From contig JAATGM010000043.1 in assembly GCA_015654675.1 (NCBI GenBank), positions 1 to 64,000 of the forward strand: a stretch of 64,000 nt of DNA, in the 5' to 3' direction. The stretch is from Planctomycetota bacterium (GTDB taxonomy: Bacteria; Planctomycetota; Phycisphaerae; UBA1845; UTPLA1). The notes below the pieces were generated by a model. That model was not told the DNA's origin. It searched no databases and saw nothing but the letters and a program-made list of their open reading frames with translations. Made by a program: the position numbers and the translations under genes. Within the stretch, counting starts at the first letter, position 1, and every line of letters starts with the position of its first letter. Of the stretch, positions 34,056 through 51,171 are shown one piece after another.

Positions 34056-34421
34056 CTACCCCGCTGGCTGCGTGCTCGGCTGACTTGCCGGCCGCGCCCC
34101 GGGCAGCCGCGGCTCGCCGATATCCGCAATCCGCGCCAGCGTCAGCTTGACGTCCATCAACGTCCCGTCGCGGTCAATGCTGAGTGTGATCTCAGTCCCC
34201 GCCTCGGTGTCGCTCAGCCGCCGTTGAAGCTCGCCGATCTCCCCCACCGGCTTGCCATCCACCGCCAGGATGATGTCTTCGGCCTTCAACCCCGCCTTCA
34301 GCGCCGGCGACGGGTCCGCAATCATGGTGATCTTCACTCGCCGCGGCTCGGCCGGCGCATCATCGTTTTCGTTGTCGTCCCCCGCCGAAGTAAGCCCGAG
34401 CACAACCCCAATCCGCCCCGG
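34056..34421 (-). pseudogene. PDZ-domain C-terminal part of an HtrA-like protein, cut off by an in-frame TAG
   Basis: This frame continues the 259-residue gene upstream without any shift. The only interruption is the TAG at 34422-34424, after which the reading goes on as PGRIGVVLGLTSAGDD and then a PDZ domain (KITMIADPSPALKAGLKAEDIILAVDGKPVGEIGELQRRL). A GTG at 34403 could restart translation, but no strong ribosome binding site is seen. I read it as the severed tail of one trypsin-fold/PDZ protein. Alternatives are stop-codon readthrough, a separate short PDZ protein, or a sequencing error. Confidence 0.7.
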
Positions 34422-35201
34422 CTAAATGTCCGTCCCACCCATCAGCCGCGCCACAACCGCTTCGATCCGTCCGCGCGGAATCGCAAACCCGATCCCCGAG
34501 TCGTACCACTCCACGCCTGCCAGCTCGCCTCCGCCACCCGCCAGCGGCACGCAAATGCCGAGCACGCGCCCATCCAGATCAATCAGCGGCCCGCCATAAT
34601 TCGCCGGCGACAGCTTCGCATCCGTCTGAATCGCATTTCCCGCCCGCCGCCCCAGCGCGCTCACCATCCCGACGCTCACCGACGGCATCGTCCCGCCGAA
34701 CCCGCGCCCGCACGCGATGGCATACTGTCCCACCCGAATCTCGTCATTCGGCGCCCACTCCGGCGCCGGCAGATCATTCGCCTCGACCTTCAGTAGCGCA
34801 ATCCGCCGAATCATGTCCCGCGCCAGCAGTTTCGCCACAAACCGCCGCCCATCCGCCATCACCACCGTAATAATCGTCGGGTCACGAACAAAATTGAACG
34901 CGCTCGTCACGATCAAACCGTCCGCCGACCAGACCATCCCCGATGTCGGACCGTCCGCGACCCGAAATCCCCCGCGCCCGAGACGCGGCGCGCTCGGCTG
35001 CGTCGTCGGCCGCCGCGCCGCCCGCGGCTGCCCCGATGGCTGCGTCCCGCCGATCGTCTCGATCGTCACAATCGACGGCCCGATCTTCGCGACCGCCGCC
35101 CGAATCGCCATCGCCCGATCCGCATCAATCTGCGACCCCGGAGCCGCAAGAGCTGCGCTGCTCGCGATGAAAATGCCCGTTGTAAGACAAACCAACCTCA
35201 T
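34422..35201 (-). CDS. HtrA-like protein with all three catalytic residues lost (pseudo-protease), truncated before its PDZ domain
   Basis: 259 residues with a signal peptide (cleavage after ALA). The trypsin-like fold is recognisable by WSADGLIVTSAFNF, VVMADGRRFVAKLLARD, IALLKVE, GMVSALGRR and YGGPLIDLDGRVLGI. Compared with the intact paralogue encoded upstream in the operon, the catalytic His is Phe102, the Asp is Ile134 and the Ser is Tyr202 (SPANYGGP for NPGNSGGP), so it cannot act as a serine protease. The start overlaps the previous gene by 4 bases. Translation ends at a TAG directly before an in-frame PDZ segment. It probably binds peptides or serves as a scaffold, if functional. Confidence 0.75.
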   Translation of the reverse strand: MRLVCLTTGIFIASSAALAAPGSQIDADRAMAIRAAVAKIGPSIVTIETIGGTQPSGQPRAARRPTTQPSAPRLGRGGFRVADGPTSGMVWSADGLIVTSAFNFVRDPTIITVVMADGRRFVAKLLARDMIRRIALLKVEANDLPAPEWAPNDEIRVGQYAIACGRGFGGTMPSVSVGMVSALGRRAGNAIQTDAKLSPANYGGPLIDLDGRVLGICVPLAGGGGELAGVEWYDSGIGFAIPRGRIEAVVARLMGGTDI

Positions 35202-36217
35202 CGCGGCGCCTCGCCAACCGTCATCTCGACGTTCATCACCTGCCCGCCGCGCTTCAGCGTCACCCGCACAATCTGCCCCGGCCGAAACTCGCTCGCGATC
35301 CGCTCAAAATCTTCAACCGACGAAACCCGCCGATCGTCCATCGCCACAATCAGGTCGTCCGTCTTGACTCCCGCCGCAGCCCCGGGCGAATCCGGCGCAA
35401 CCCGATCCACAAACGCCGCCTTCTTCAGATATCCAAGCTTGAACAGCCGAATCCCCGTAAACGGCTTCGCCCCCGGCGTCGTGGGAGTCGCTGCCACCGC
35501 CGGCGCGCTCGCCGTCGCCCGCAATCCCAGAAACTCCTCAATCTTCTCCGCCGGAATCGCGTAATTCACCCGCGTATTCGTCTCCGCCGCCTCCGCCAAT
35601 GGCCCGATCAATCCCACCCACCGCCCCGACGCATCGCACATCGGACCGCCCGCCATCCCCGGATTGCTCGCGATCGCGTCGATCACCAGCAACTGCCCCG
35701 CATAGTCGAGCGGCTGCGTCCCGCGCCGCAACTCCAGCGTCGTCCGCGCCGCCAGCACGCCATACATGATCGACACCGGCTCCGACCCCTCGGCCCCCTT
35801 GAACGAGTTCCCCAGAATCACCACGCCATCCCCAGGCAACAGCGATTCCGAACTCTCCGGCGCAAGAAACGGCAGCTTGTTCGCGTCAATCCGCAGCAGC
35901 GCCAACTCGCGCGACGGGTCGCGCCGCACCACCTCAGCCCGAAACTGCCGCCCATCCGCCAGCACCACCCGAATGTTCAACCCATCCAGCAGCACCGAAT
36001 CGACGGTCACGATCAGTCCATCCGCCGAAATCAAAACCCCCGTGCCATACCCATGCACCGACCCGCCCGCCGCCCCATACAACTTCACCACCGTCGGCAG
36101 GATCTTTCGAAAAGTCCCCTCCACCGCATTTGGCATCGACGGCGGAACGCCCCCGCTTTCATCCGCGCGCGACGGCGCACACAAAGCCGACAGCATCAAA
36201 ACCGTGCGAAGCAGCAT
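35198..36217 (-). CDS. HtrA-like pseudo-protease with C-terminal PDZ domain
   Basis: 339 residues from the ATG at 36217, which begins a signal peptide (MLLRTVLMLSALCAPSRA) and leaves a 4-base gap to the gene before it. Trypsin-like fold with GTGVLISADGLIVTVDSVL, VVLADGRQFRAEVVRRD, ELALLRID and NPGMAGGPMCDASGRWVGLIG. Relative to the active paralogue, the His is Ser74, the Asp is Glu104 and the Ser is Ala189, so catalysis should be lost while the fold is kept. The PDZ domain is at ~245-335 (AFVDRVAPDSPGAAAGVKTDDLIVAMDDRRV). It is likely secreted and may regulate or partner the active HtrA. Confidence 0.8.
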   Translation of the reverse strand: MLLRTVLMLSALCAPSRADESGGVPPSMPNAVEGTFRKILPTVVKLYGAAGGSVHGYGTGVLISADGLIVTVDSVLLDGLNIRVVLADGRQFRAEVVRRDPSRELALLRIDANKLPFLAPESSESLLPGDGVVILGNSFKGAEGSEPVSIMYGVLAARTTLELRRGTQPLDYAGQLLVIDAIASNPGMAGGPMCDASGRWVGLIGPLAEAAETNTRVNYAIPAEKIEEFLGLRATASAPAVAATPTTPGAKPFTGIRLFKLGYLKKAAFVDRVAPDSPGAAAGVKTDDLIVAMDDRRVSSVEDFERIASEFRPGQIVRVTLKRGGQVMNVEMTVGEAPR

Positions 36218-36221
36218 CACG

Positions 36222-37844
36222 TCAGGCCCCACCGGCCGCCGGCTCGACCTTCGTCATCTCATCCAGAAAAAGCGGTTCGCCGCCAATCAACACCCGCCTC
36301 TTGAACGGCCACCGAATCGCCCCAACGCGTCGGTAGTCGTCATACTCGTACCGCACGCGCCGCCCATCCGCCTTCGCATCAAACTCAATCGCCCGCAGCG
36401 CCCCGCCATCGTCATCGAAGAAAAGTCGATACTCCGGAACCCCCTCGACCTTCCGCTCCACCACCACAACGATGTCGCCGCCGACTTCGTCACCGCCCAC
36501 GACCCGATACCCGGCCTTCCCCGCGTCCTCCAGCGGTCGCAGCAGCGACCACCGAATCCATTTCTCAAGCTCCCCCGGCTCCTCCGGCGCCTTCGCATCC
36601 GCCGCCGGCCGCGACTCCACTACATCCAAAGAAGTCGGCGCATCATCCGGCTTGCCCGCGCGCCGCCGCTCGCCGGTCAGCCGCACCTCGTTCACTTGCG
36701 AGACCGCCTCAGGCCGCCCCACAAAACGTTGATACCGATCCCACGCGCGCATCACCGCCCGCGCATTCGCCTCCGGATTCGGCCGCAGCGGGTCCTTCAC
36801 CTGCAACTGCGCGAGCACATCCTTCGGCGGCCGCAACCCGCGCGGCAACGGAATCCCATCCAGACGCAGATTCAAATCACGCTGCTTCCCCTCCCGCTCA
36901 ATCGTCATCGTCACCGGCCATTCCGCCGGATACGTCCCCAGCAGCGTCAGCAGATGATTCGCCGACTGCACCTCCACGCCCCCAAACCGCAGCACGCGAT
37001 CGCCAAGCTTGAGCCCCGCCTTCGCCGCGCACGAATCATTCAGAATCTGATCCACCACCACATGCCGCAGCGCCTTGTCGCGCGTCGTCGCCCCCAGCGT
37101 AGCATGCTTCGTAATCAACCCCGCCCGCAGCGACGGAATGAACCGCTTGATCTGATTAATCGTGATCGCGTAGCCCAACCCCACATTGACGCGCCCGCGC
37201 TCTTCGATGCTGATCCGCCCATTGATCCCCACCAGGTCCCCGCGCAGGTCAAACAAAGGCCCGCCCGAATTACCCGGATTGATCGACGTATCCACCTGGA
37301 TGCAATCCGTATAGTTCAGCGCCCGCCCCTCGCCGCGCTGATACCGATGCAACCCCGACACAATCCCACACGTCACCGTCGGCCGGAAATCCTCCGCCAG
37401 CAGAAACGGGTTTCCCATCGCCAGCGTCCAGTCGCCCACCCGCAGCGCATCCGAATCCCCCAGCGGCGCCGGATAGAACGGCTTCTCGCGATCAATCTTG
37501 AACATCGCCACGTCGCCGCCCGGATCAAACCCCAACACTTCGAGCGGATACACCTGCCCGTCCGGCAACCCCGCGTCACCGCGCCGATCGCCGATAAACC
37601 CGCGAATGACGTGAAAGTTGGTTACCCCATAACCCTGCGAGTCGATGATCACCCCCGACCCGCCCCCCGCCCGGCTGCCGCGCGGAAAAATGCAAACCAC
37701 GCACGGCGTCAGCCGCTGCACCATCTCCACCCGCGCCCGCTCAATCGCGCGCAGCCGCGCCAGCCCAGCCGGATCAGCCGGCCCGCTCGTCGGAGTCGGC
37801 GCCGCGCAAACCAGCCACACCAGCGATAATACGGCGTTCATCAT
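36222..37844 (-). CDS. HtrA/DegP-like serine protease with PDZ domain, catalytic triad intact
   Basis: 540 residues with a signal peptide. Trypsin-like domain with GSGVIIDSQGYGVTNFHVI (His78), GFDPGGDVAMFKID (Asp111) and QVDTSINPGNSGGPLFD (Ser193), so the triad is complete. A PDZ domain follows at ~265-345 (DSCAAKAGLKLGDRVLRFGGVEV). The C-terminal ~190 residues form an extra domain not found in DegP, with a beta-rich look (RVVGGDEVGGDIVVVVERKVEGVPEYRLFFDDDGG). It is the only active member of three tandem HtrA-like genes and probably performs periplasmic proteolysis or chaperoning within this operon. Confidence 0.85.
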   Translation of the reverse strand: MMNAVLSLVWLVCAAPTPTSGPADPAGLARLRAIERARVEMVQRLTPCVVCIFPRGSRAGGGSGVIIDSQGYGVTNFHVIRGFIGDRRGDAGLPDGQVYPLEVLGFDPGGDVAMFKIDREKPFYPAPLGDSDALRVGDWTLAMGNPFLLAEDFRPTVTCGIVSGLHRYQRGEGRALNYTDCIQVDTSINPGNSGGPLFDLRGDLVGINGRISIEERGRVNVGLGYAITINQIKRFIPSLRAGLITKHATLGATTRDKALRHVVVDQILNDSCAAKAGLKLGDRVLRFGGVEVQSANHLLTLLGTYPAEWPVTMTIEREGKQRDLNLRLDGIPLPRGLRPPKDVLAQLQVKDPLRPNPEANARAVMRAWDRYQRFVGRPEAVSQVNEVRLTGERRRAGKPDDAPTSLDVVESRPAADAKAPEEPGELEKWIRWSLLRPLEDAGKAGYRVVGGDEVGGDIVVVVERKVEGVPEYRLFFDDDGGALRAIEFDAKADGRRVRYEYDDYRRVGAIRWPFKRRVLIGGEPLFLDEMTKVEPAAGGA

Positions 37845-37866: not shown

Positions 37867-39078
37867 CTAACGAATCAAGCGGGCATTTCCCCACACCGCT
37901 CGATCCCCCAGGTCCAATCCATCCCCAAAGTCCACTTCCAGCGAAAGCCGCCGCGCCCCCTTCAACTCCACCGCAATCTCCCGCGGTGCCTCTCCGGCCT
38001 TCACCGCCCCGCTCTCAAACAACGGCTGCCCGTCCCCCAGCACGCGAAACACCACATTCCCCTGCCGCGCCGGATCATCCACCCCGATCGTCGCCTGAAA
38101 CTGCGCGAACGACTCCGGCAACTCATAAATCAGCCGGCTCTGCGAATGCACCGCCAGCCCCTTTGCAAACGTCCGCTCGCCGATCTTCAGCGGCCCGCCC
38201 ATCAGCCCGCGATCCGCCGACCACGGCCAGTCGTCTCCCAGAAATCCGCGACTCTCCACCGCGCTCGGCTTCAGGTTCGACAGGAACTCCACTCGCGAAC
38301 TCTGCAAATCAACCCGCTCAATCTCGCTCCACGGCAGCGACACATCCGCATCGAACGAAGTCCGCAGCCGCAACCCGCTCTCGTCCGCCGAACGAAGCGT
38401 CGCCGCAAACCGCGCCCCGGAGCGCAGCACAACCCGCGCCGTCGCATCCGATCGTTGCCCGCTCCCCGACGCAAACACAATCGCAAACGTCCGCGCCAAC
38501 GGCCCGCGCCGCACCTGCCCGCCCAGCTTAAACGTCCACTCCGTGGGCGTCAGCGATTCCAACGCCCCCGGCACGGCCGTCGCCCCGTCCGCCCCCAGCG
38601 CAATCAAAAAATCCCGCGTCGCGTCACGATGTGCCAGCCGCGTCTCCAATTCACGCTCGGCCGCCTCGTTCCGCGTATTAGAAATCCGAATCGCCGCCAG
38701 CGAACTCAACGGAAACGCCACCGGCCGCGGCAGTCCAACGTCCGCCAACACGCCGCGCCCATCCTCGCTCGGCAACAGTCGCCCGCGCAACTCTCCCCCA
38801 TCCGCCAGAATAATCGTGACCGCCCCTTCTCCCTCGGCCGGCCGCGAGCTCACCGTCGCCCCCGGCGGAACAATCTGCACTAGGTCCTCCAGCCGGGCCG
38901 GCGATTGATCCTTCGACGCCGGAATCGAAATCTTCCCGTCCGCCCCGATCGACAATTCCGCCGCGCTCAGCGTCCGCCCGTCGACGGTCGTCAGCGTGAA
39001 TGCCCCGTTCGTCCGCCGATCGCTCGGCGTCGAAATCAACCCCGCCAGAAGTATCCCGGCCACCATTAAGCGCATCAT
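37867..39078 (-). CDS. Secreted protein with C-terminal NPCBM-like domain
   Basis: 403 residues with a signal peptide (MMRLMVAGILLAGLIS). The first ~230 residues are beta-rich, with repeated LADGGELRGRLLPSEDG and LRSGARFAATLRSADESGLRLRT segments, suggesting two small barrel-like modules. The last ~140 residues match the NPCBM (novel putative carbohydrate binding module) pattern: DWPWSADRGLMGGPLKIGE, FAKGLAVHSQSRLIYELP, QFQATIGVDD and VVFRVLGDGQPLFESG. It probably binds glycan or cell wall in the periplasm or outside. The start overlaps the preceding gene by 4 bases. Confidence 0.78.
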   Translation of the reverse strand: MMRLMVAGILLAGLISTPSDRRTNGAFTLTTVDGRTLSAAELSIGADGKISIPASKDQSPARLEDLVQIVPPGATVSSRPAEGEGAVTIILADGGELRGRLLPSEDGRGVLADVGLPRPVAFPLSSLAAIRISNTRNEAAERELETRLAHRDATRDFLIALGADGATAVPGALESLTPTEWTFKLGGQVRRGPLARTFAIVFASGSGQRSDATARVVLRSGARFAATLRSADESGLRLRTSFDADVSLPWSEIERVDLQSSRVEFLSNLKPSAVESRGFLGDDWPWSADRGLMGGPLKIGERTFAKGLAVHSQSRLIYELPESFAQFQATIGVDDPARQGNVVFRVLGDGQPLFESGAVKAGEAPREIAVELKGARRLSLEVDFGDGLDLGDRAVWGNARLIR

Positions 39079-40214
39079 GGCTCGCCATTTTCCTTCGACA
39101 GCTCGCGGTAGTATTGCTCAACCAAATCGCGATACTGGCTCGGAAACCGCTTCTGCAACGCCTGCAACAACGCCTCGCGCTCCTTCGCCGGCATCTTCCC
39201 CCACGATTCGCCCGGCCGAACGCGTTTGTTATCGCCCAGGTTCGTATCCCCGCCCCCCTGCGGCAACGTCGATTTCTGCGCGTGCTGCGCCCCCGGCTTC
39301 GCCCCGCGCGGATCATTATTGTTCTTCCCGCCGCCGTTCTTCTGCGATTTCGAGTTCTGCTGCTGCTGTTGTTGTTGCTGCTGCTTCTCCTGGTCTTCGG
39401 CCTGTTCGACCAGCTTCCCCAGCAAGTCAACCGCCTTCTTCTGCTTCTCGCGCACGTCGTCGCCCGACTTGCCCAGGTCCATCTCGCGCCGCGCATAATC
39501 CATCAGGTCATGCACGTCGCTCAGCCCGTCCGGCTCGCGCGTGTTCAATTCCTTGATCATCTGCTCGGCCGACTTCCGCAGCCGCTCGGGCGCATTCGCA
39601 TAGTTGTGCAGAAACTCACCCAGCTCGGCCGTCGCCTGCTCGTATCGCAGCATCTGCACCGCCGAAAACCCGGACAGAAACAGCATCTCCCCCGCGCTGG
39701 TCGTCCTCTCTCGCCAATCCCCGTGTTTCGCCTCCACGCCGCGCAGCAGCGCATCCGCATTCACCAGCCGATCCTCCCCCACCATCGCCTGCGCCGCCAA
39801 AGCCGCGGCGTTCACCGCGAGATACGGATCATCGCTCTCGGCCAGCTTCGCCAGCGCTCCGGTTGCCTTCGAAGCGTCGTTCCCATTCTGCAGGTCCAGC
39901 GCCGCCTTGAACTCCGGATACAGCACCGCCAGCGCATCGACGACAAACGTCTCCGCTTCCGGATTGCCGCGTCGCTTGGCCCACTCCGCCGCGACAAACT
40001 GTCGCGCCGTCTCCGGATAACTCGCCGTCTCCCCAACGTGCTTGACAAATCCCTCCACAATCTCATCCGCCGGCTCCACCGCCGGATACACCGGCTCGCT
40101 CGTCGGCGTCAGATTGAGCGGCCGCAACGGCGGCGGCATCTCGGGCGTCTGCGCCACGCCGGCCGTTCCAGCCCACGCCACCAGCAATCCACAAATAATC
40201 CGGTTCACGCCCAT
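39075..40214 (-). CDS. Secreted helical-repeat protein with Q/N-rich linker
   Basis: 379 residues with a signal peptide (cleavage after GVA). Residues ~60-260 are helical and resemble TPR-like repeats (AALDLQNGNDASKATGALAK, LVNADALLRGVEAKHGDW, QMLRYEQATAELGEFLHNY). A low-complexity linker with an unbroken run of eight or more Gln, then Asn/Gly/Lys (residues ~275-310), leads to a conserved-looking C-terminal helical piece (SWGKMPAKEREALLQALQKR, then YRDLVEQYYRELSKENG). No enzyme motif is seen. It may act as a scaffold or adaptor in the operon's complex. Confidence 0.7.
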   Translation of the reverse strand: MGVNRIICGLLVAWAGTAGVAQTPEMPPPLRPLNLTPTSEPVYPAVEPADEIVEGFVKHVGETASYPETARQFVAAEWAKRRGNPEAETFVVDALAVLYPEFKAALDLQNGNDASKATGALAKLAESDDPYLAVNAAALAAQAMVGEDRLVNADALLRGVEAKHGDWRERTTSAGEMLFLSGFSAVQMLRYEQATAELGEFLHNYANAPERLRKSAEQMIKELNTREPDGLSDVHDLMDYARREMDLGKSGDDVREKQKKAVDLLGKLVEQAEDQEKQQQQQQQQQNSKSQKNGGGKNNNDPRGAKPGAQHAQKSTLPQGGGDTNLGDNKRVRPGESWGKMPAKEREALLQALQKRFPSQYRDLVEQYYRELSKENGEP

Positions 40215-40216
40215 CG

Positions 40217-42202
40217 CTACGGCCCGGCTTCCTTCCGCGACTGCTCGCCTTCGACCATGTCCTTCGCCATCTTCGCTACCGCCGCCTGACGCTTTGACGC
40301 CCCCTTCAACATGTCATTCAAGCCCTTCGGCGACTCAGTCGGCAGCACGCGCTTCTTCTCAACCTCCGACGTCATTTTATTCACGCGAACCTGCAAACTC
40401 TTCAGCAGCTTCAATTCGGCCGACCCCGGCATCAGCGGCGGCGTCTTGTCCGACTCGCCCGCCTGCCCGCCGCCGTTCGACTCATTCTCATTCTTCTTCT
40501 GCATTTCCTTCACGGCGTCCAGCAGTTCCTGCAGCGTCGCGACGATGTTCTCCTGAATCTGTCGCACGTCGCTGCCCGTTTCCGCCTCGCCCAGCCGCCG
40601 CGCCACATCCAGCGCATCATCCCGGACCTGCTCGATGATCTGCGGCACCACAATCGTCGTGCCGTCCTCTTTCAGAATCTTCAGCGCCGTGTCCGCCTCG
40701 TCGCCGACCCACTTCTGCTGCTTCGAAGCGTCCGCCAGCTCAAGCTGCTGCGTCCGCGACCAGTTCTCCTTGCCCGCGCTGTCCAGCGTGTTCGTCTGTT
40801 TGTCGATCTCGATCTGCTTCGCCAGCATCGCCGCGAATCGCGCCTCCAGCGCCGCCAGCATCTCTTCCTGCTGTTCCTTGCGGAGCTGTTCCAGCGCGTC
40901 CTCCAGGTCCTGCTTCGCCTGCTTCAGCCGCTCGACCGCCTTCTCCTGTTCCTTTTCCGCATCCTTCGGCTTCTTCTGGTCGAGCTTCTCACCCGCCTTC
41001 TGCTGATGCGGAACCGCCTCCTTCACCGATTGCCCGCCCGGCTTCGGCGGCGAATTCTGACCCTCTTCTTCCTTCTTCTCTCCGCCCTGATCATCCTTCT
41101 GTGATTCGCCCTTCTGCTGCTCTCCGCCGTCCTTCTGCTCGCCGTTCTTTTGCTTGCCGCCCTTCGGATCACCCCCCGGCTTGCCGTCGTCCTTCTGCTT
41201 TGCGCTCTTCTGTTGCCCGTCCTGCTGCTCGCGGCCATCCATCTTCCGCGCCAACTGATCCGTCTTCTTGGCCGTATCGCGCTGCTGCTCCGCCTGCTTC
41301 AACAGATCCAGCGACTTCTCGACTTCCTTCTTCCGCTCCTCAATCTTGTTCAGCGCGTCCTTCAGCGCCTCCTCGGCCTTCTCTTGCGAAGCCGGCGCCT
41401 CAGAAGACTTCTCCCCGCCAAGCTTCTCCTCCGCCTCCTGCATCTCCTTCGCCGCCTGCTCAGCCGACTTCGACGCCAGATTTGCCTTGTCCTCTTCGTC
41501 GCCCTGCCGGCCGGCCTGCGATGCCGCCTTGGCCGCCTGTTCGGTCTGCTTGCGAACCTCGCCCTGCTTCTTCGAAAGCTCGCCCTTGGCCGTCTTGCCC
41601 GCCTTCGACTCCTTCGTCAGCGCCTCCTGCTTCTTCAGCGCCTCGCGAAGCTCGCCGGCCGCCGCCTGCAACTGCGCCCGAATCCGCTCCGCGTCCGCCG
41701 CCGTCCGCGAGTCCCGCAGCTCCTCCTCCTGCTCTTTGAGAAGCCGATTGAGTTGCTCGCGCAGCGCTAGCAGCTCCTTCGTCTCCTCCTTCTTCGCCTC
41801 GTTATCCGCATTCTCGTTCAGCAAAACCTTTAGCACTTTGGCCAGGTCCGCCAGCATTTGGTCCTGCGAGTCAGCCGCGTCCGACAGCTTCGCCGCCCGC
41901 AGATCATCGATGATCCGCTGCGCCCGCTGCCGCAACAGCATGTTCCGCCCCGTAGACAGCGCATCCAGCAACCGCGCCGCATGCTCCGGCTCGGTCTTCT
42001 GCAGCACCTGGCTCAGCTGGTAAAGCCGATCCTCGAGCCGCGTCAGCCGCGACAGCACGATCGCCTGCTCGTCCGCCAGCCGGTCCCCGGGTCGATTGCC
42101 CGGCTGTGTAGACGCCGAAGTATCCGCGCTAGCCGCGCCCGCCCCGGCGCAGACGATCGCCGCCGTCCACAAACTCCGGCAAAATGCGCCTCGCACCATC
42201 AT
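40217..42202 (-). CDS. Secreted Glu/Lys/Gln-rich coiled-coil protein
   Basis: 661 residues with a signal peptide (cleavage after ASA). Almost the entire mature protein is predicted helix and coiled coil, with long stretches of E, K, Q and A (for example RLLKEQEEELRDSRTAADAE and EEALKDALNKIEERKKEVEK) and a central low-complexity Gly/Gln/Lys section (~residues 325-400). The C-terminal third has more complex helices (QQKWVGDEADTALKILKEDG). No catalytic domain is recognisable. Large coiled-coil proteins at this position are usual in planctomycete MoxR/VWA operons and may be structural. It is 18 bases downstream of the preceding gene. Confidence 0.75.
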   Translation of the reverse strand: MMVRGAFCRSLWTAAIVCAGAGAASADTSASTQPGNRPGDRLADEQAIVLSRLTRLEDRLYQLSQVLQKTEPEHAARLLDALSTGRNMLLRQRAQRIIDDLRAAKLSDAADSQDQMLADLAKVLKVLLNENADNEAKKEETKELLALREQLNRLLKEQEEELRDSRTAADAERIRAQLQAAAGELREALKKQEALTKESKAGKTAKGELSKKQGEVRKQTEQAAKAASQAGRQGDEEDKANLASKSAEQAAKEMQEAEEKLGGEKSSEAPASQEKAEEALKDALNKIEERKKEVEKSLDLLKQAEQQRDTAKKTDQLARKMDGREQQDGQQKSAKQKDDGKPGGDPKGGKQKNGEQKDGGEQQKGESQKDDQGGEKKEEEGQNSPPKPGGQSVKEAVPHQQKAGEKLDQKKPKDAEKEQEKAVERLKQAKQDLEDALEQLRKEQQEEMLAALEARFAAMLAKQIEIDKQTNTLDSAGKENWSRTQQLELADASKQQKWVGDEADTALKILKEDGTTIVVPQIIEQVRDDALDVARRLGEAETGSDVRQIQENIVATLQELLDAVKEMQKKNENESNGGGQAGESDKTPPLMPGSAELKLLKSLQVRVNKMTSEVEKKRVLPTESPKGLNDMLKGASKRQAAVAKMAKDMVEGEQSRKEAGP

Positions 42203-42220: not shown

Positions 42221-44467
42221 CTATGGCGCGGGCCGACTGGTCGGCGATCCAAACATCTCATCCAGACGCCGCTGCATTTCCGCCTGCGTCTCGCGTTTGA
42301 CGTCGCCCTGAATCTTCAACAAATCTTGCAAAAGGCCCACGGCCTCGTTGTATCCTTCCCATCTTATCATGTTCGCCAGAATCGCTTGCATGCTTTGAAG
42401 AATCTTGTCCTGCAACGCCCCAAGCTCATTGGCGCCGCTGGAATCGTAGCCCTTCTCCAGCCGATCCAGCCGGCTGACCGCGTCGGTCAGGTCCGTATCG
42501 ATCAGCGTGGTCATCGGATCGATGATCCCGCCTTGCAGTCTTCGCCGCACCTGGGCCGATGCCAGTTGATTCACTGCCAGCTCCGCCAGCATGTCCTGAA
42601 AATTCTTCCGAACTCCCTTCACGCGCGTCGCCAGTTGCCGCTGCCGCCGCGCGAAGTCGCGATACGTCCGCGACGCCTCGCTGGCCTCCTTCGCGTCCGA
42701 ATCCAGCTTCCGCCGCGCCGCCTCCAGTTCGTCGCGAACCCGCGTCTGCGCCTTGATGATCTGTTCGAACTCCTGACGCCATTCCGACTCCCGCCGTGAT
42801 AGCTCGGTCAGCAGCTCCTCCGGCGTGACCACTCTTAATGTATACGTCGCCGAACGCCCCTCGTTTGCGGGGATGGCGTCCCGATTCTCGGTCGTTTGCC
42901 CCAAATCCGGATTGAAGTCGCGGGCCCGACAGTAGATAGCGATTCGATCATTCGGCACGAGCCGCAGCGGTTCCAGCGCAAACGGCCGCGCCGCGCTGAA
43001 TCGCGTCTGTCCCGGTTCGACCCCCTTCAACGCCGCGACGACCTCGTCCGGCTGCGTGGTCGGCTGAGTCGTCGCCTCCGCCTCGATGGCGTCCGCAGCC
43101 CGTTGCGCCCGATAGACAAGGTCCGCCGAAGCGATCCCCAGGTTGTCTTCGATCTCGGTCTCAACGCGCAACACCGCGCCCGGCGTAATGATGTCTCCCG
43201 CACCCGGAAGTCGCAGACGAACCCGCGGCGGACGATCATTCACTAGTCGAATCAGCGCCGACGCCGGCCGCACGTCCTTCAACCCGTCTTCGTCGGTTAG
43301 ATCAAACGAATACGATCCGCTCCGCGTCGGCTTAAATGTCGCGGCCCACTTCTTCTCGTCAATCCTCGTCGCCGCGATCGGCTTCGCACCGGAGCCCGCC
43401 AGCGCCGCCCCGCTCAGCAGCTTGTTCACATCCGCCTTCAACTCAACAGACGATCCCGTCAGCACATCGCCGCTCAACTGTCCCGCCGGCCAGTCGTACG
43501 CCGGCTGCTTCGCATACTCCGGCGGCGTCACCCGCACCGTCAGTTTGCGAACGCTCGGCCGATCCAGCGCCTCGACGCGATACTCTTCGCTTCGCTCATC
43601 CACGCCCCACCGCCCCAGCACGAACCGCAGCTTCAGCGATCGATCCAGCGACCCCAACTCGACCCGGAACTGCCGATCGCCGATCGCCGCCATCGATCGC
43701 TGATTGCTCTGTCCGTCGTCCCCCTCAAACTCAACCCGCACTCCGTGCCGCGGTTGTTCACCTTCGGCGTTGACCACCAGCGTCAACGCATCGCCTCGCG
43801 GCCAGCGCAGCACTCCATTCACAAATCCAACCGGCGTCAGCCGCGTGTTCGATGGCCACGGCGTGTCATCCAGTAACACGTTGCGGCTGACAAAAACCGC
43901 CGCCGTCGTCGGAAACGCGATGGCCGCCCCACCCGCGATAGCAACCACCACCGCCCCAAGCGCCAGGTGTTTCGTAAGTCGCGCGTTCAGCAGCAGCCCC
44001 GACCACGAATACGACCCGAATCTGGCCGCAATTCGGTCAATCAGCGCCGCCACCAGCGCCGGCGAATCGGATTGCGGATTCAATCGCCCCGCCGATGCGA
44101 ACTGCACGGCGCTGATCAACTCATCCCGCAGCCCCGCGTCGTGCCGCTCGACAATGGCCGCCATTGCGTCCACCGTCAGCCGCTGCCGCAACGGTCGCAA
44201 TACCAGCCGCCAGAGCAGCGTCGCCAGCGTGGCCGCCACCACCAGCAGCATCGCCGCCCGCGGCCCGCGCTCCAGCCGCAGCAATCGATCGATGGCGAAC
44301 TGCACCGCCATCAGTCCGACCGCCGCCGCCACGACCAGGCACAAACCTTCCAGCGTCGCGTGTAGCCGGATCCGCCGCGCCAATCGCGCCAGCGGCCGCA
44401 GCACGCGATCGCCGAATGCCGCTCGCGGCTCGACGTCGATCAGGTTGCCTGTAGTCAGCGTGGACAT
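42221..44467 (-). CDS. Large membrane protein with N-terminal helices and C-terminal coiled coil (DUF4175-like)
   Basis: 748 residues from the ATG at 44467, 10 bases after the preceding stop (an ATG at 44554 would overlap that gene by 77 bases). Two membrane helices at ~45-100 (LEGLCLVVAAAVGLMAVQF, AAMLLVVAATLATLLWRLVL) and another at ~175-195 (LALGAVVVAIAGGAAIAF). A large extracytoplasmic region with Ig-like beta segments follows (SVRKLTVRVTPPEYAKQPAY, GSYSFDLTDEDGLKD). The last ~190 residues are coiled coil. This arrangement resembles DUF4175-type proteins found with VWA/BatA genes. Function is unknown. Confidence 0.72.
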   Translation of the reverse strand: MSTLTTGNLIDVEPRAAFGDRVLRPLARLARRIRLHATLEGLCLVVAAAVGLMAVQFAIDRLLRLERGPRAAMLLVVAATLATLLWRLVLRPLRQRLTVDAMAAIVERHDAGLRDELISAVQFASAGRLNPQSDSPALVAALIDRIAARFGSYSWSGLLLNARLTKHLALGAVVVAIAGGAAIAFPTTAAVFVSRNVLLDDTPWPSNTRLTPVGFVNGVLRWPRGDALTLVVNAEGEQPRHGVRVEFEGDDGQSNQRSMAAIGDRQFRVELGSLDRSLKLRFVLGRWGVDERSEEYRVEALDRPSVRKLTVRVTPPEYAKQPAYDWPAGQLSGDVLTGSSVELKADVNKLLSGAALAGSGAKPIAATRIDEKKWAATFKPTRSGSYSFDLTDEDGLKDVRPASALIRLVNDRPPRVRLRLPGAGDIITPGAVLRVETEIEDNLGIASADLVYRAQRAADAIEAEATTQPTTQPDEVVAALKGVEPGQTRFSAARPFALEPLRLVPNDRIAIYCRARDFNPDLGQTTENRDAIPANEGRSATYTLRVVTPEELLTELSRRESEWRQEFEQIIKAQTRVRDELEAARRKLDSDAKEASEASRTYRDFARRQRQLATRVKGVRKNFQDMLAELAVNQLASAQVRRRLQGGIIDPMTTLIDTDLTDAVSRLDRLEKGYDSSGANELGALQDKILQSMQAILANMIRWEGYNEAVGLLQDLLKIQGDVKRETQAEMQRRLDEMFGSPTSRPAP

Positions 44468-44477
44468 TCCGATCCAA

Positions 44478-46886
44478 TCACAGCAGGTTCTTCGCCCGCC
44501 GAACGATCCACTCAATCGTGAGCAAACCGACCAGCGCCGCAAATACGTAAGCATTGTCCCAAAGCGGTTTCGGCCGCTCGCGCACGATCATCGTCTGGCT
44601 CCGGTCCTCAATCCCCAGCGGCAACTGTCGCGCCGCGTCAATTTCGTAATATTTCCCGCCCGTCTGCTCCGCGAGTTCGACCAGCGTCGCCCGCCGCATC
44701 ACCGGATTGCTCAACTCCACGTCGCTCGGCGCAATCGCGATCTCGCGCGTTACCTTCAGCGGCTCCCCGCCCTTGGCCGGCAAGCTCACCGCCAACTGCG
44801 CCGTCCCCGGCTGATCCGCGATGAACCGCCCCTGGTAATAACCCGGACGGCTCTCAATCGGCTCCAGCGTAATGGTCCGCGCCGCCTTCCCCGCGTTCGT
44901 CATGCTCAACTCCGCCCCCGGCTGCAACAGCGGCTGAAACTTCTCATCCAGCAATCGCACCGTCACCACCACCGCTTCACCCGGCTGAAACCGATCGCGA
45001 TCCGTCAGCAGCAGCACGCGATTCCGCGAACCCGCCAGCTTCCCCTCCACCAGATATCTCAGCGTCTGGATCCAGAATCGATTGAAATACTTCTCCCCCA
45101 GTCGCCGCCACCGCCACGAATCATCAAACCCCACAAACACCGACCGCCCCGACCCGACATACTGCGTCGCCATCAGAACGTGCGGCCCGACCGCGTTCAC
45201 CATCTTCGGATTTGAGTGCCGCAGCAAAACCGTCGCCGCTGGCTTCTCGCGCCGCACCGGATAGTGCCAATATGCCCCCTCAAACGAGTTCCACAGCGAC
45301 CGGCTCGACAGCGGATCATCCGCCATCCGCAAAATCGGGCTCGAAAGCGAGTTCTCCGGAATGATCACCGGCCAGTTCTTCCGCTGATAAATCCCCAGAT
45401 CATTCAGCGCCAACTCAGCGTCCGGATCGCGAACCACCGGCAGGATTTCCATCAAAGGCGCAGTCTTCGGGCTGCGGAAAAAGTCGCTCGAATACTTCCG
45501 CCCCGCCGAATACAGAATCCCGCCGCCGTAGTCCGTCACCAGCGATGCCGCCATGCTCGCCCAGTTCGCCGGCAGCGGCGCCGGGTTCGGATCAAGCAGC
45601 AGAATCGCGTCATACTTGAACAACTCCGCCGACGTCGCCGGCAGATGATCAATGATCGTCGTCCCCTCGCGCACCGCCTTGTCATCCGCCGATTGCAGCC
45701 AGCAACTCACATCCACCGACCGGTCGCGAATCAAAAGCCGCGCCAGCAATCGATAATCAAAGCTCGGCGCGCCGCCCACCAGCAACACCCGCATCTTGTC
45801 ATCCAGCACGCGTACCGCCGGAAAAACATCCCGCACGTTGTCCGATTCGATCGACTCGTCTTCAAGCGGAACCGCCCGCACCGCGTACTGAATGTCCCCC
45901 GGCTTCGACACCCGCTGCTCGAAAACCACCGGATCGAACTGCCCATCTCCGCGCGGCATGACCGTCCGCTTCTCAACTCTCCGATCCTGCCCGCCGGCCC
46001 CCTTCTCCAGCAGTTCCACATCCACCGGCCGCCCGGCAAGCCCCTGCCCCGCCAGAAAAGCCGTCACCTGAAACGGATCGGCCTTGAACACCATCCGCGG
46101 TGCACTCACCTCCACCACCCGCACATTCACCGGCTCCGACGCATCCCCCGTCCCCACCGCCGATATCGGAATGCGCCGCGCCTTCAGCGTCTGCGCCACT
46201 GCCTCCGCCGGCTCGCCGTCGTTAAATCCGCCGTCACTGACCAGTACCACCCCGGCCACCGGCGCGCCGCCCAGCGATTCAATTGCCCCGCGTACCGCCT
46301 GGCTCAGGTTCGTCATCCCGCCCCGCGCATCCAGCTTCAAGTCCGCCGGCTGCGTCGTCGCCGACTGCGGAATCTCCGCCAGCTCGCGCAGGCGATCCCC
46401 AAACGCAAACACCTTCACTCGATTCCGCTTCGCCAGCTCATTCAACCAATCGGAAGTCACCAGCTTCGCAGTCAGCGCCTCGCGCGAAATCCCTGCCTTC
46501 TCGTCAAACGCCCCCGCCACCGCCGCAACCTGCCGCGCCGCCTCCGGCGACCGATACCGATCCGCCACCCCCATGCTCGCCGACTCGTCAATCAGCACAA
46601 TCGTGTAAGCATCCACCCGCCGATGCACATACTTCACCAGCACCGGCTCCAGCCCGATCAACCCCAGCAGCATCAGCGCCGCGCACCGCAGCCCGATCAG
46701 CACCGCCCGCGTCCCGCGCCCCATCGAGCCGCGCGCCTCGTGCCGATACATCCACCGCACCGCCAGCACCAGCACGATCGTCAGCCCGACGCCAGCGATC
46801 AGCGCATTGCCGCTCGACCACCGCGCCAGCTCCACTTGCTCCTCGACGCGCGTCGAATCCGCCAGCATCAGCGCCGCAGGAATCAT
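44478..46886 (-). CDS. VWA-domain membrane protein (glutamine-amidotransferase-like type)
   Basis: 802 residues starting at the ATG 46886, which overlaps the previous stop (ATGA). Two membrane helices lie at ~28-46 and ~60-80. The von Willebrand A domain follows with an intact MIDAS motif DESAS (residues 100-104) and VVLVSDGGFNDGEP. A Rossmann-like segment (RVLLVGGAPSFDYRLLARLL) is typical of the GATase-like part of these proteins, without a visible catalytic Cys triad. Beta-rich repeats come next, and a final membrane helix (YVFAALVGLLTIEWIVRR) ends the protein. It likely sits in the inner membrane and works with MoxR and DUF58. Confidence 0.82.
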   Translation of the reverse strand: MIPAALMLADSTRVEEQVELARWSSGNALIAGVGLTIVLVLAVRWMYRHEARGSMGRGTRAVLIGLRCAALMLLGLIGLEPVLVKYVHRRVDAYTIVLIDESASMGVADRYRSPEAARQVAAVAGAFDEKAGISREALTAKLVTSDWLNELAKRNRVKVFAFGDRLRELAEIPQSATTQPADLKLDARGGMTNLSQAVRGAIESLGGAPVAGVVLVSDGGFNDGEPAEAVAQTLKARRIPISAVGTGDASEPVNVRVVEVSAPRMVFKADPFQVTAFLAGQGLAGRPVDVELLEKGAGGQDRRVEKRTVMPRGDGQFDPVVFEQRVSKPGDIQYAVRAVPLEDESIESDNVRDVFPAVRVLDDKMRVLLVGGAPSFDYRLLARLLIRDRSVDVSCWLQSADDKAVREGTTIIDHLPATSAELFKYDAILLLDPNPAPLPANWASMAASLVTDYGGGILYSAGRKYSSDFFRSPKTAPLMEILPVVRDPDAELALNDLGIYQRKNWPVIIPENSLSSPILRMADDPLSSRSLWNSFEGAYWHYPVRREKPAATVLLRHSNPKMVNAVGPHVLMATQYVGSGRSVFVGFDDSWRWRRLGEKYFNRFWIQTLRYLVEGKLAGSRNRVLLLTDRDRFQPGEAVVVTVRLLDEKFQPLLQPGAELSMTNAGKAARTITLEPIESRPGYYQGRFIADQPGTAQLAVSLPAKGGEPLKVTREIAIAPSDVELSNPVMRRATLVELAEQTGGKYYEIDAARQLPLGIEDRSQTMIVRERPKPLWDNAYVFAALVGLLTIEWIVRRAKNLL

Positions 46887-49186
46887 GCCCGCGCACCAAA
46901 CCAGCGCGCCAGCCCCTGCTCCAGCATCAAAATCGCCACCGTCGCCAGCAGGATCGGCCACCAGATCTCCCGCCGCGCCGTCGCCGACTCATCCGCGAAC
47001 GCCCCCACGTCGCGCACATACTCGAACTTCATCTCCTTCAGCGCGTCGCCCAGCTCCGCCCGGTTCGCCCGCCGCAAATCGCTCTCGCGCGCCTCCGGAT
47101 TCACCGCCACATACCGCAACGCGCTCTCGCCCGAAGTCCGCTTCAACTCAAACGCATAAATCCCAACCCGATCCGTCCGCTCCCACAAAAGCTGAAACCC
47201 GCCATCCCCCGACTTCGCCTCAATCGGATACGCCGGATCAGCCGGATAGCTCGGCAACCGCAAAGAGGCCTGCAGCGCAAACCGATTCGCATCCAGATTC
47301 ATCCGAATCGGGCTGCCCGCCGTGACCTGCCCCACGAAAGAGCTCGGCCGCGACACATACTGCGCAATCTGCAACATCGTCGGCAGGTAGCTCGGATCGC
47401 GCGCCCACCCGTTCCACTCCAGGTCCGCCGAGGTCGTGCACAACACCACCCGCCCCGCCCCGAAACTCCGCTCCACCAGCAGCGGCGAATGCTCCGCATC
47501 ATCCAGACTCGCGATCACCCGCGCCCCCGGCTGCGTGGTCGCAATCTGTGTCGTCGTCGGCCCGCTAGTCGCAACAGTCGCCGCCGGCCGCGCAGCGGTA
47601 TACGCATAAAACCGCGGACTCTTCAGCAATCGCCCCGCCTCACCCGAAAACGGCCGAAAGATCGGATGCCCCTCATCCCACGTCCCGATCCCAACCCCAT
47701 CCGCCGCCTCCATCGCGTTCGCCGTCTCGCCCAGCTCCGCCGGCAGCAACCCATTCCCCCCCGCAAACAACCGCTCGTTGTAGAGCGACGCATCCACCTG
47801 GTCGCCCGCGAAAATCACCAGCCCGCCCCCGTCACGGACATACTGCTCCAGCTTCCGCTGCGCCACCTCGTCAATCCGATACACGTTCGCCAGAAACACC
47901 GCGTCAAACGCCGTTAAATCCGTCGCGTCCAACTGATCGTCCGCGATCACGCGGACGTCATTCCCGCTCGCCACTCGGCCAGCCGGGCTCAGCGCCGTCT
48001 TCAACAGATAAACCTCGTCCCGATACCCATCGCTGCTCGGCTCCCCATCCACCAGCAGCAGCGGCACCCCTGCCGCAACCTCCACGCCCACCCCGCGCCG
48101 ATTGTCGATCGGCAGCCGGTCCTCCGCCGCCGCGCTCACCACGTCCGCCGTGACGCGATCCGCGCCCTCCTGCCCAAACGTCACTTCCAGCGGCTCCGCT
48201 AGCGTCCGCCCCGCATCAAACCGCGGCAACACGATCGTCGGCAGCGCCTGGTCCGCAATCGACCCGCGCAGCTCGCCGTCCGACACATCTCCGTCGGAAT
48301 AATTCGCCATCGTCACGTCATACCGCCCGCGAACCCCAGCCACCGCCCGCGTAGCCGACGACGCGATATCCGTCACCGCCAGGTTCACCGGTCGATCCGC
48401 CCCGACATCCACCAGCGTCAGCCGCAACGATTTCCGCGTCTCAGCCAGCGCCGCCAGCGGAGCAATAACGCTCGCCTGCCCCGCCCCACTGCCTTGCCCC
48501 CCGCCACCCTGCCCTGCAGGCCGCACCCAGTCCACTTTCTGAAAATCACTGACCAGATAAACCGCCGTGTTCGTCTGCGTCGGCGACCGCTCAATCATCT
48601 CCGCCACCGATGCAACCGCCGTCGAAGCCCCGCGCGCCAAGTCGCTCGCCATCGGCTGCGACAGCGCATCCCGCAACTTGGCGATGTTCTCCTCCGAAAG
48701 ATTCGGAAGCGCCACCACCGGCTGATCCGGCCGCGACGATCGAATCAGCGTCAGCGAGTCGTTCGGCAGCTCGCTCCCCACCCACCGCGCCAACTGCTCC
48801 ACGGCCTTGCATCCGCGCGAAAAAACCGTCTCCCCCGCTCCCATGCCATATTGCATCGAAAACGAATCATCCAAAACGACGATCCGCTCAGTCCGCGCCC
48901 CCGACCCCAACAATGCCGCCGCCGCCGCCGGCCGCAAAAAAGGCCGCGCTACCATCAGCGCCAGCAAAAGCACCGCCAAACACCGCAGCACCAGCAAGAT
49001 GATCTGCTCAATCTGCACCTGCCGCCGATTCTGTCGCAGCGCCGCCAGCAGGAAATCCATCGCCGCCCAGTCGACCACCCGAAACCGCCGCCGCGAAAAA
49101 ATATGAATCAGAATCGGCGCGGCAACAGCCGCCCCGCCCAGCGCCAGCGCGGGATGAAACAGCCAGCTTCCCAGCCAACCCATCAT
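46883..49186 (-). CDS. BatA-type VWA membrane protein
   Basis: 767 residues. The N-terminal BatA domain (LFHPALALGGAAVAAPILIHIFSRRRFRVVDWAAM) carries the first membrane helix, with a second at ~62-82. The VWA domain begins with the MIDAS-like DDSFS (residues 106-110). A long periplasmic region has a GATase-like segment (VPLLLVDGEPSSDGYRDEVYLL) and beta-sandwich stretches. The C-terminal helix is WWPILLATVAILMLEQGL. It is paralogous in layout to the next gene of the operon. BatA-type proteins are linked to envelope stress and to metal- or complex-assembly roles of MoxR systems. Confidence 0.83.
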   Translation of the reverse strand: MMGWLGSWLFHPALALGGAAVAAPILIHIFSRRRFRVVDWAAMDFLLAALRQNRRQVQIEQIILLVLRCLAVLLLALMVARPFLRPAAAAALLGSGARTERIVVLDDSFSMQYGMGAGETVFSRGCKAVEQLARWVGSELPNDSLTLIRSSRPDQPVVALPNLSEENIAKLRDALSQPMASDLARGASTAVASVAEMIERSPTQTNTAVYLVSDFQKVDWVRPAGQGGGGQGSGAGQASVIAPLAALAETRKSLRLTLVDVGADRPVNLAVTDIASSATRAVAGVRGRYDVTMANYSDGDVSDGELRGSIADQALPTIVLPRFDAGRTLAEPLEVTFGQEGADRVTADVVSAAAEDRLPIDNRRGVGVEVAAGVPLLLVDGEPSSDGYRDEVYLLKTALSPAGRVASGNDVRVIADDQLDATDLTAFDAVFLANVYRIDEVAQRKLEQYVRDGGGLVIFAGDQVDASLYNERLFAGGNGLLPAELGETANAMEAADGVGIGTWDEGHPIFRPFSGEAGRLLKSPRFYAYTAARPAATVATSGPTTTQIATTQPGARVIASLDDAEHSPLLVERSFGAGRVVLCTTSADLEWNGWARDPSYLPTMLQIAQYVSRPSSFVGQVTAGSPIRMNLDANRFALQASLRLPSYPADPAYPIEAKSGDGGFQLLWERTDRVGIYAFELKRTSGESALRYVAVNPEARESDLRRANRAELGDALKEMKFEYVRDVGAFADESATARREIWWPILLATVAILMLEQGLARWFGARA

Positions 49187-49192
49187 GCCGCC

Positions 49193-50112
49193 CTACCGCT
49201 TTCGCAAATGCTCGCGCATCGCCAGATAGCGCCGCAGCGCCACATCCAGCGGCTGCGTCGTCGTCAACTCGACGAAATCAACCTGCCGATTCAAACACTC
49301 CCCCCGAATCCGCGTCAAAAACTTCGCCAGCTCCTCCAGATAAGCCCGCCGCAACGACTGCGGATCAACCGTCAAATGCGACGCCGACTCCAGCCCCTCA
49401 AACCGCGTGTGCTGCTGAAATCGAAACTCCCGCTCATCCTCATCCAGCACGTGCATCACGATCACCTCGTGCCGCTCGTGCCTCATCCGATCCAGCGTCC
49501 GCAGCAGCGCGTCCGTGTCCATCAGCAGATCGCTGATCAGCACCACCACGCTCCGCCGCCGCAGCTTGCTATGCAGATCGCGCGTCAGAACATCCGACCC
49601 GCTCGCCCGCTCCAGCAGCGCCCGCTCAAGCTGCGCCACCAGCGCCCGCAGATGCGCCTGGCTCGAAAGCGCCGGCATCTCCGCCCGCACCGCATCATCA
49701 AACAACAGCAACCCCACCGCGTCCTGCTGATGCGTCAGCAAAAACGCCAGCGACGCCGCCAGCGTCGCCGCATACTCAAACTTGCTCATCCGCCCCGGCT
49801 CGCGCCGCTCCGGATACCGCATCGATTTCGAACAATCCACCAACAACTGCGTGCGAAGGTTCGTCTCCTCCTCATATTGCTTGATGTAAAGCCGATCCAC
49901 CCGCCCCCAAACCCGCCAATCCAGGTGCCGCGTGTCATCACCGGCGACGTATTCCCGGTGCTCGGCAAACTCGACCGAATAACCCCGGTACGGGCTGCGG
50001 TGCATGCCCGAAACAAACCCCTCCACCACCTGCCGCGCGCGAATCTCCAGCCCGCCCAGGCGCGATAGCACCTCCGGCCGCAGATAGCCCGCCGCTCCCG
50101 GCGCGCCCGAAC

Positions 50113-50116
<4 letters not shown>
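49193..50116 (-). CDS. DUF58-domain protein (MoxR-associated, VWA-like fold)
   Basis: 307 residues. The DUF58 signature is clear: [64 protein letters not shown]-like fold follows with a metal site ([10 protein letters not shown]-x-S-x-S). No membrane segment is seen, so it is cytoplasmic. It overlaps the moxR stop by 4 bases and precedes the BatA-type gene by 6. DUF58 proteins are regular partners of MoxR ATPases. Confidence 0.88.

Positions 50117-51171
<1,055 letters not shown>

Follow-up and report, generated by a model that had tools for sequence, protein, structure and literature searches.

Introduction

Why should a bacterium keep three HtrA-like genes side by side if only one of them retains a catalytic triad? 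The question is raised by a 64,000-nt stretch of DNA from a Planctomycetota bacterium (UTPLA1; contig JAATGM010000043.1 of assembly GCA_015654675.1), the whole of which is called here the window. On its minus strand lie three tandem genes, here g1, g2 and g3. In textbooks, HtrA proteases figure as self-controlling homo-oligomers. An initial annotation of the window had read g1 as an active protease and g2 and g3 as paralogues with every triad residue replaced, and had proposed that they are selected as pseudoproteases. The analysis presented here suggests, with a probability of roughly 0.6, that g1-g2-g3 is an ancient planctomycete module, in which g1 would be the catalytic HtrA-type member and g2 and g3 dedicated pseudoproteases, serving as non-catalytic partners or subunits of g1. 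Five findings stand behind this: the triad of g2 and g3 is consistently lost, the genes are under purifying selection, they are present or absent together, their order is conserved, and some of them occur naturally fused. We further infer that the products are exported, that they form a physical complex, that g1 is regulated in it, and that the module is linked to a Bat-type system encoded upstream.

Three HtrA-like genes, one catalytic triad

The first gene, g1 (36222..37844, minus strand, 540 amino acids), encodes an HtrA-like protease with an intact triad, a PDZ domain and a C-terminal part that is poorly conserved beyond about residue 330. It is followed on the same strand by g2 (35198..36232, 344 amino acids from a GTG start), an HtrA-like pseudoprotease with a PDZ domain, and by the pseudoprotease part of g3 (34422..35201, minus strand, 259 amino acids), which is closed by an in-frame TAG. 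The reading frames overlap in an operon-like manner, g1 and g2 by 11 bases (36222-36232) and g2 and g3 by 4 bases (35198-35201). The Pfam domain Trypsin_2 is found above its cut-off in all three products (E 1.9e-29 for g1, 3.1e-24 for g2 and 9.4e-25 for g3), so that the tandem of three HtrA-like genes is as first described. A PDZ domain is recognized by Pfam in g1, in g2 and in the intact g3 of the nearest relative, G011, and the window's g3 has a PDZ_2 match (E 3.7e-14) beyond the TAG. Judged by its sequence, g1 is HtrA-like yet outside the Do-family model TIGR02037 (216 bits, below the cut-off of 416). A stretch resembling an export signal, as judged by eye, stands at the start of g1, g2 and g3, and g1 apparently works as a secreted protein-cutting enzyme.

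The triad of g1 is His78/Asp111/Ser193, as in the initial annotation. At the same columns g2 has Ser79/Glu109/Ala194 when counted from the GTG start; these are the residues reported earlier as 74/104/189, a numbering that fits a start at an internal ATG five codons downstream of the GTG. The case of g3 is less simple, with Phe102 or Asn103, Arg133 and Tyr202 at the three columns. Its His equivalent depends on a one-residue gap, which gives Phe102 when aligned to the left and Asn103 when aligned to the right, as MAFFT does; neither is a histidine. The earlier assignment of Phe102/Ile134/Tyr202 thus keeps its tyrosine, keeps its phenylalanine under the left alignment, and loses Ile134, the aligned residue being Arg133.

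These replacements recur well outside the window. Each protein was searched against 101 genomes, namely that of the window and 100 relatives from its family and order, and 80 regions were fetched from 72 of the 74 genomes that carry the module. A first residue set holds 69 g1, 72 g2 and 72 g3 sequences from these relatives, plus the window. In it, g1 has His, Asp and Ser in 70 of 70 rows. The 73 rows of g2 read S66 T3 A2 G2 at the His column, Q65 R3 E2 K2 H1 at the Asp column and P42 A28 S1 Q1 E1 at the Ser column, and the 73 rows of g3 read N71 T1 S1, R36 K36 Q1 and Y66 F7, respectively. An enlarged set adds loci found when named genomes were scanned with the g3 alignment, 80 of the 500 confirmed loci being taken; it excludes L149-L205, L209, L220 and L225, many of which repeat genomes already counted. 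The first set and the named-genome set overlap in genomes and hence are not independent. G004 and the g1 genes of G003, G068 and G088, which lie on other contigs, stand outside the residue counts. In the enlarged set the g1 triad is intact in 84 of 84 rows, and histidine is found at the His column in 0 of 88 g2 rows and 0 of 93 g3 rows. Asp occupies the Asp column in three g2 rows and Ser the Ser column in two. The Ser column of g3 is Tyr or Phe in all 93 rows (Phe in 7), and it is likewise Tyr in three further, more distant g3 sequences from a sample of 294 genomes of the phylum. Because the same replacements recur in relatives, the loss of the triad is no local accident. Intact g2 or g3 triads in relatives, which would have spoken for decay in this genome alone, were not found in these alignments. 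On sequence grounds g2 and g3 are catalytically inactive homologues and not HtrA proteases, since they lack the triad. Five other HtrA-like genes in the same genome each have the TNxHV and GNSGGP motifs.

Two observations on g1 stand apart from this. Outside its triad, Cys181 is present in 83 of 84 rows, His247 in 84 of 84 and Cys51 in 57 of 84. The g1 of G065 (L232:362-1291) has a single TAG ahead of the protease domain, and its row was counted as triad-intact.

Could g2 and g3 still cut peptides through other residues, such as the conserved tyrosine of g3? Strong conservation is indeed seen at the Tyr/Phe column of g3 and in the residues around it (SPANYGGPL). The phenylalanine rows speak against such chemistry in g3, as does a Ser column in g2 that is mostly Pro or Ala. 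Moreover, neither g2 nor g3 has a conserved His, and only one Cys column is seen in g3, reaching 59 of 93 rows. We therefore hold unusual catalysis to be very improbable.

Selection on the inactive copies

The ratio of nonsynonymous to synonymous substitution rates (dN/dS) was estimated by the Nei-Gojobori method, with our own script, for 22 genome pairs, some of which share genomes and many of which are near synonymous saturation. It ranges over 0.07-0.42 for g1, 0.09-0.42 for g2 and, leaving aside one pair with an undefined value, 0.05-0.37 for g3. Most values lie below 0.3, and those of g2 and g3 fall in the range of the active gene. In the close pair G027/G081 the ratios for g1, g2 and g3 are 0.20, 0.17 and 0.16; in the close pair G033/G045 they are 0.18, 0.14 and 0.16. 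Both g2 and g3 are under purifying selection.

Local conservation points in the same direction for part of the old active site. The loop that once held the serine is near the top of the conservation scale, its value being reached by only 3 of the 164 windows along g2 and 6 of the 153 along g3. The former His segment is highly conserved in g3 (20 of 155 windows). With the triad gone and the Ser loop still conserved, some of the former active site seems to have retained a non-catalytic role.

Distribution, age and co-inheritance

Strong matches to g1, g2 and g3 coincide in the same 74 of the 101 genomes, and the remaining 27 lack all three. For g2 and g3 the genomes were selected manually, the line being drawn where a gap separates strong matches from those of ordinary HtrA genes; G049 was included for g2 despite a short match of 94 bits, its region having g2 beside g1 and g3. 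The proposal that the inactive copies are selected as pseudoproteases is thereby upheld on several counts: recurrent non-catalytic residues, dN/dS within the g1 range, a conserved Ser loop, and genes that are kept or missing together.

The module extends over much of the phylum, and with 80 of 500 confirmed loci taken from the named-genome scan the statements made here are confined to Planctomycetota. The 80 loci taken from the named-genome scan are titled Phycisphaerae, Pirellulaceae, Gemmataceae, Planctomycetaceae and other Planctomycetota, with two titled Proteobacteria or Alphaproteobacteria. All three genes exceed the score limits in 62 of these loci; the other 18 show g3 alone or g3 with g2, several of them at contig ends. 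A tree built from 86 protease domains places g1, g2 and g3 in one clade each, with a support of 99 by SH-aLRT (this and the other trees were built by a quick method, with support by SH-aLRT). Each clade holds Phycisphaerae plus rows titled Pirellulaceae, Gemmataceae and Planctomycetaceae. As every clade spans these lineages, the three types must have parted before the lineages did. The two records with proteobacterial titles, L157 (Alphaproteobacteria) and L173 (Proteobacteria), carry planctomycete-type g3 genes, that of L173 lying among Phycisphaerae in the g3 tree; they are probably misnamed bins.

Of the 294 genomes in the phylum sample, 46 are matched by the g2 profile at E 1e-55. The g3 profile at E 1e-45 finds 173, but at that threshold an ordinary HtrA of the window's genome already scores 178 bits. 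Only matches above 230 bits were thus counted as g3-type, since the listed scores drop there from 234.6 to 217.6, which leaves 47 genomes. All 46 genomes with g2 also carry g3, with the two genes adjacent in 44.

Co-inheritance does not depend on adjacency alone. In G003, of the same family as the window, g1, g2 and g3 are on three contigs and all are retained; in G027, G058, G079 and G081, g3 and a g1-g2 fusion are on different contigs. Beside g3 some loci show other peculiarities. An HtrA-like gene with intact motifs adjoins it on the opposite strand in G081 (L092:11057-12412), G027 (L100:4041-5396) and G058 (L102:10644-11897). Outside Phycisphaerae, two long g3 genes (L213:5980-7962, 661 amino acids; L215:5908-8007, 700 amino acids) have two PDZ matches each, and the rest of their extension has no named domain.

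The in-frame stop of g3

In the window itself, g3 is interrupted by a TAG (34422..34424, minus strand) between its protease-like part and its PDZ part. The latter continues beyond it with the frame unchanged (34056..34403, minus strand), the first possible start being a GTG at 34403. A search of the window's own genome also gives one TAG inside the g3 match. The range first given for the three genes runs to 34056, and the stop had therefore been read through; the statement that the PDZ parts are kept holds for g1 and g2, and for g3 it fails in one continuous frame, the PDZ being coded beyond the TAG. Since g3 itself terminates with a TAG at 34056, the codon need not mean an amino acid here.

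The stop lies in a weakly conserved linker of g3. Among the relatives, 0 of 73 other strong g3 matches have a stop in the protease-like part, and 71 of the 72 fetched g3 frames span 322-406 amino acids, the frame of G010 being cut by a contig end. In the phylum sample a stop is found in 4 of the 47 g3-type matches, and the three besides the window are the gene end behind the PDZ. Identity between the g3 genes of the window and G011 is 67% before the TAG and 51% beyond it; in pairs of intact genes the values beyond and before are 49/58, 47/63, 48/61 and 55/70%. The part beyond the TAG has thus diverged about as in intact pairs, with no unusual drift. Because the stop is not found there in relatives and no such drift is seen, the sequence marks the TAG as recent, or as an assembly or strain variant. 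A restart at the GTG at 34403 is possible, and would yield a PDZ protein with no export signal.

The stop could instead belong to a general decay, with g2 and g3 as crumbling duplicates of g1. Besides the TAG, the high dN/dS of the window against G011 (0.419 for g1, 0.419 for g2 and 0.370 for g3) fits such decay. Yet the ratio is equally high in the active g1, it is low elsewhere, and the same residues are replaced across the phylum. In relatives g3 is intact, presence and absence are shared by the three genes, and the PDZ part of the window's g3 is no more diverged than in intact pairs. Residues, dN/dS and co-occurrence contradict decay of g2 and g3, which we reject for the family and consider hardly credible as an account of the locus.

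Natural fusions and predicted structures

A single open reading frame encodes both g1 and g2 in 16 of the 72 genomes from which regions were fetched. An alignment of all 16 fusions shows the g1 half intact and the g2 half degenerate. When the fused state is mapped on the g3 tree (104 rows, three records appearing twice, with two further fused loci), at least 7 changes are needed. A different fusion occurs in a Pirellulaceae record (L214:4600-6963), where g2 and g3 form one protein of 788 amino acids with two Trypsin_2 matches. At the level of sequence, the fusions suggest, indirectly, that g1, g2 and g3 are partners. They lend support to the earlier idea of a mixed-complex subunit or partner, and do not distinguish a regulator from a decoy.

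A confident model assigns the HtrA fold to g3. The predicted fold of the intact g3 of G011 has a mean predicted local distance difference test score (pLDDT) of 85.8 and a predicted template modelling score (pTM) of 0.82, and in a Foldseek comparison it comes closest to DegS, DegP and DegQ (E 5e-26 to 2e-25). The natural g1-g2 fusion of G060 was also predicted (pLDDT 78.4, pTM 0.74), from an alignment of the 16 fused rows only. An alignment that combined the fused rows with g1-only and g2-only rows was dropped, its g1-only rows having 21-27% identity to the first row and being taken as misplaced onto the g2 half. The best match of the first half of the fusion is the Mycobacterium HtrA-like protease 2z9i_A (Z 31.9, root-mean-square deviation 4.0, 281 residues). 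The comparison mainly paired the g1 half with HtrA structures, and excludes no other fold.

The upstream operon

Upstream of g1, eight genes follow one another on the same minus strand. An NPCBM-domain gene (37867..39078) lies directly upstream, and next to it come a gene with no confident Pfam domain (39075..40214), one with no Pfam match (40217..42202), another with no Pfam match that was used as a marker (42221..44554), and one whose VWA matches are slightly under the Pfam cut-offs (44478..46961). These are preceded by a BatA-like gene (46883..49186; Pfam BatA 54.5 bits, cut-off 25.9), a DUF58 gene (49193..50116) and a MoxR-type AAA ATPase (50113..51171; Pfam AAA_3, 213 bits). Many of the regions fetched from families f1, f4, f5 and f8 repeat the order BatA-VWA-42221-40217-39075-NPCBM-g1-g2-g3. 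A similar NPCBM gene occurs in 63 of the 80 fetched regions (two have it on the opposite strand), and a BatA-like gene in 34 of 80, many regions ending before its position. The marker gene is found in 80 of the 101 genomes: 72 of these are among the 74 that carry the module, and 8, two of them with weak matches, lack it. The module is therefore nearly always accompanied by the operon, and the operon can exist without the module. From gene order, the module usually appears to close an operon of MoxR-DUF58-BatA-VWA type, DUF58 and MoxR having been read in the window alone.

Elsewhere in the window, a gene on the plus strand (27816-29270, 484 amino acids) has a weak, partial NCBIfam match (E 1.1e-6) to a model named inactivated M6-like metalloprotease.

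Partners of g1 or separate receptors

If g2 and g3 are partners of g1, they would bind it and set its activity or its choice of substrate, most simply inside a mixed HtrA particle. The binding surfaces would be the remodelled former active sites together with the PDZ domains of g2 and g3. The whole module would probably act as the proteolytic arm of the upstream MoxR-DUF58-BatA-VWA type envelope system.

The best precedent for such a role of g2 and g3, by analogy, is the pair MamE and MamO of magnetotactic bacteria, in which MamO activates MamE-dependent proteolysis with no catalysis of its own (PMC4794232). As here, an active HtrA is accompanied by a degenerate paralogue, with which it works in that pair, and the pseudoprotease clade is conserved. 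Unlike that pair, the planctomycete module has two different pseudoproteases for each active protease, sometimes fused. In contrast to MamO, g2 and g3 have no Pfam match to a TauE-like transporter domain and no conserved His/Cys pair. Scores of the NCBIfam MamO model are 48 and 25 bits, its cut-off being 800. Metal binding by a di-histidine motif of the MamO type was also considered and set aside: no column of g2 or g3 has His in at least 60% of rows, the position of the motif itself not having been mapped.

The same precedent can be turned the other way, as the authors did not detect a physical interaction between MamE and MamO (PMC4794232). On that line, g2 and g3 would be peptide or ligand receptors built on the HtrA fold, engaged in substrate capture, chaperoning or sensing, with no contact to g1 and in an envelope pathway that needs all three. 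The conserved former Ser loop and the PDZ domains fit binding without catalysis, and the genes are kept even when dispersed, as in G003. The repeated g1-g2 fusions and the g2-g3 fusion are more easily explained by direct partnership, and we consider separate receptors unlikely, if far from negligible.

Several findings weigh against a partnership of all three proteins. Co-inheritance and fusion are also compatible with proteins that serve a common pathway as partners without assembling into a single particle, and no interface could be read from the predicted fold of the G060 g1-g2 fusion. No g1 was seen inside the fetched flank of L214, where g2 and g3 are fused. One of the 47 g3-bearing genomes in the phylum sample (G291) has no g2 match, and up to 8 of the 101 genomes have the MoxR-type operon without the module. 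In the window, g3 has no PDZ in frame, the TAG (34424-34422) ending it after 259 amino acids. Finally, conservation is not unusual in the former His segment of g2 (63 of 164 windows), nor in the former Asp segments of g2 (61 of 166) and g3 (118 of 156).

Relation to other Deg proteins and MoxR operons

HtrA pseudoproteases are already known; what is new here is one active copy with two differently inactivated ones, co-inherited and sometimes fused, in several lineages of one phylum. DegP, DegQ and DegS share with g1, g2 and g3 a trypsin-like domain followed by PDZ, and they are the top structural matches of the g3 model and, behind mycobacterial HtrA-like proteases, also match the g1 half of a natural fusion best; unlike them, g2 and g3 lack the catalytic triad. 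In Arabidopsis, two different Deg proteins, Deg5 and Deg8, form one complex with 1:1 stoichiometry; both are described as triad-bearing proteases and the complex as built of homotrimers, whereas two of the three proteins have lost the triad here (PMC4877387). Deg homologues with mutated peptidase domains are mentioned there for Nostoc and Anabaena. Compared by description only, those differ in that the excerpt names two strains and no conserved module, in contrast to the module found here (PMC4877387). According to a survey from 2019 of PDZ proteins in microbes, planctomycetes have many of them; its main text never uses the word "inactive" (PMC6411480). Operons of the MoxR/Bat type have MoxR-type AAA, DUF58 and BatA genes in a row, as here; the consulted pages of the article that describes them term their function elusive and do not mention the HtrA triple, which ends the operon in the window (PMC3557215). 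No description of the g1-g2-g3 module was found in the literature searched, which left subscription journals mostly and bioRxiv preprints wholly outside, and covered only the top-ranked part of the longest result lists.

Conclusions

A more specific version of the partnership between g1, g2 and g3 can be proposed, which we regard as speculative and rather doubtful: an HtrA assembly that is obligately mixed, such as a trimer that joins one active subunit to two different, specialised pseudo-subunits. Established early in Planctomycetota, it would form the proteolytic arm of a MoxR-DUF58-BatA-VWA envelope machine. If this is true, the activity of an HtrA protease would be set by two ancient dead paralogues, and not by self-assembly of identical subunits. 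With a module spread across much of the phylum, the regulation of active enzymes by pseudoenzyme siblings inside one assembly becomes testable. The module also ties an HtrA protease to an operon of MoxR/Bat type. Two protein families that match serine protease models should now be named pseudoproteases.

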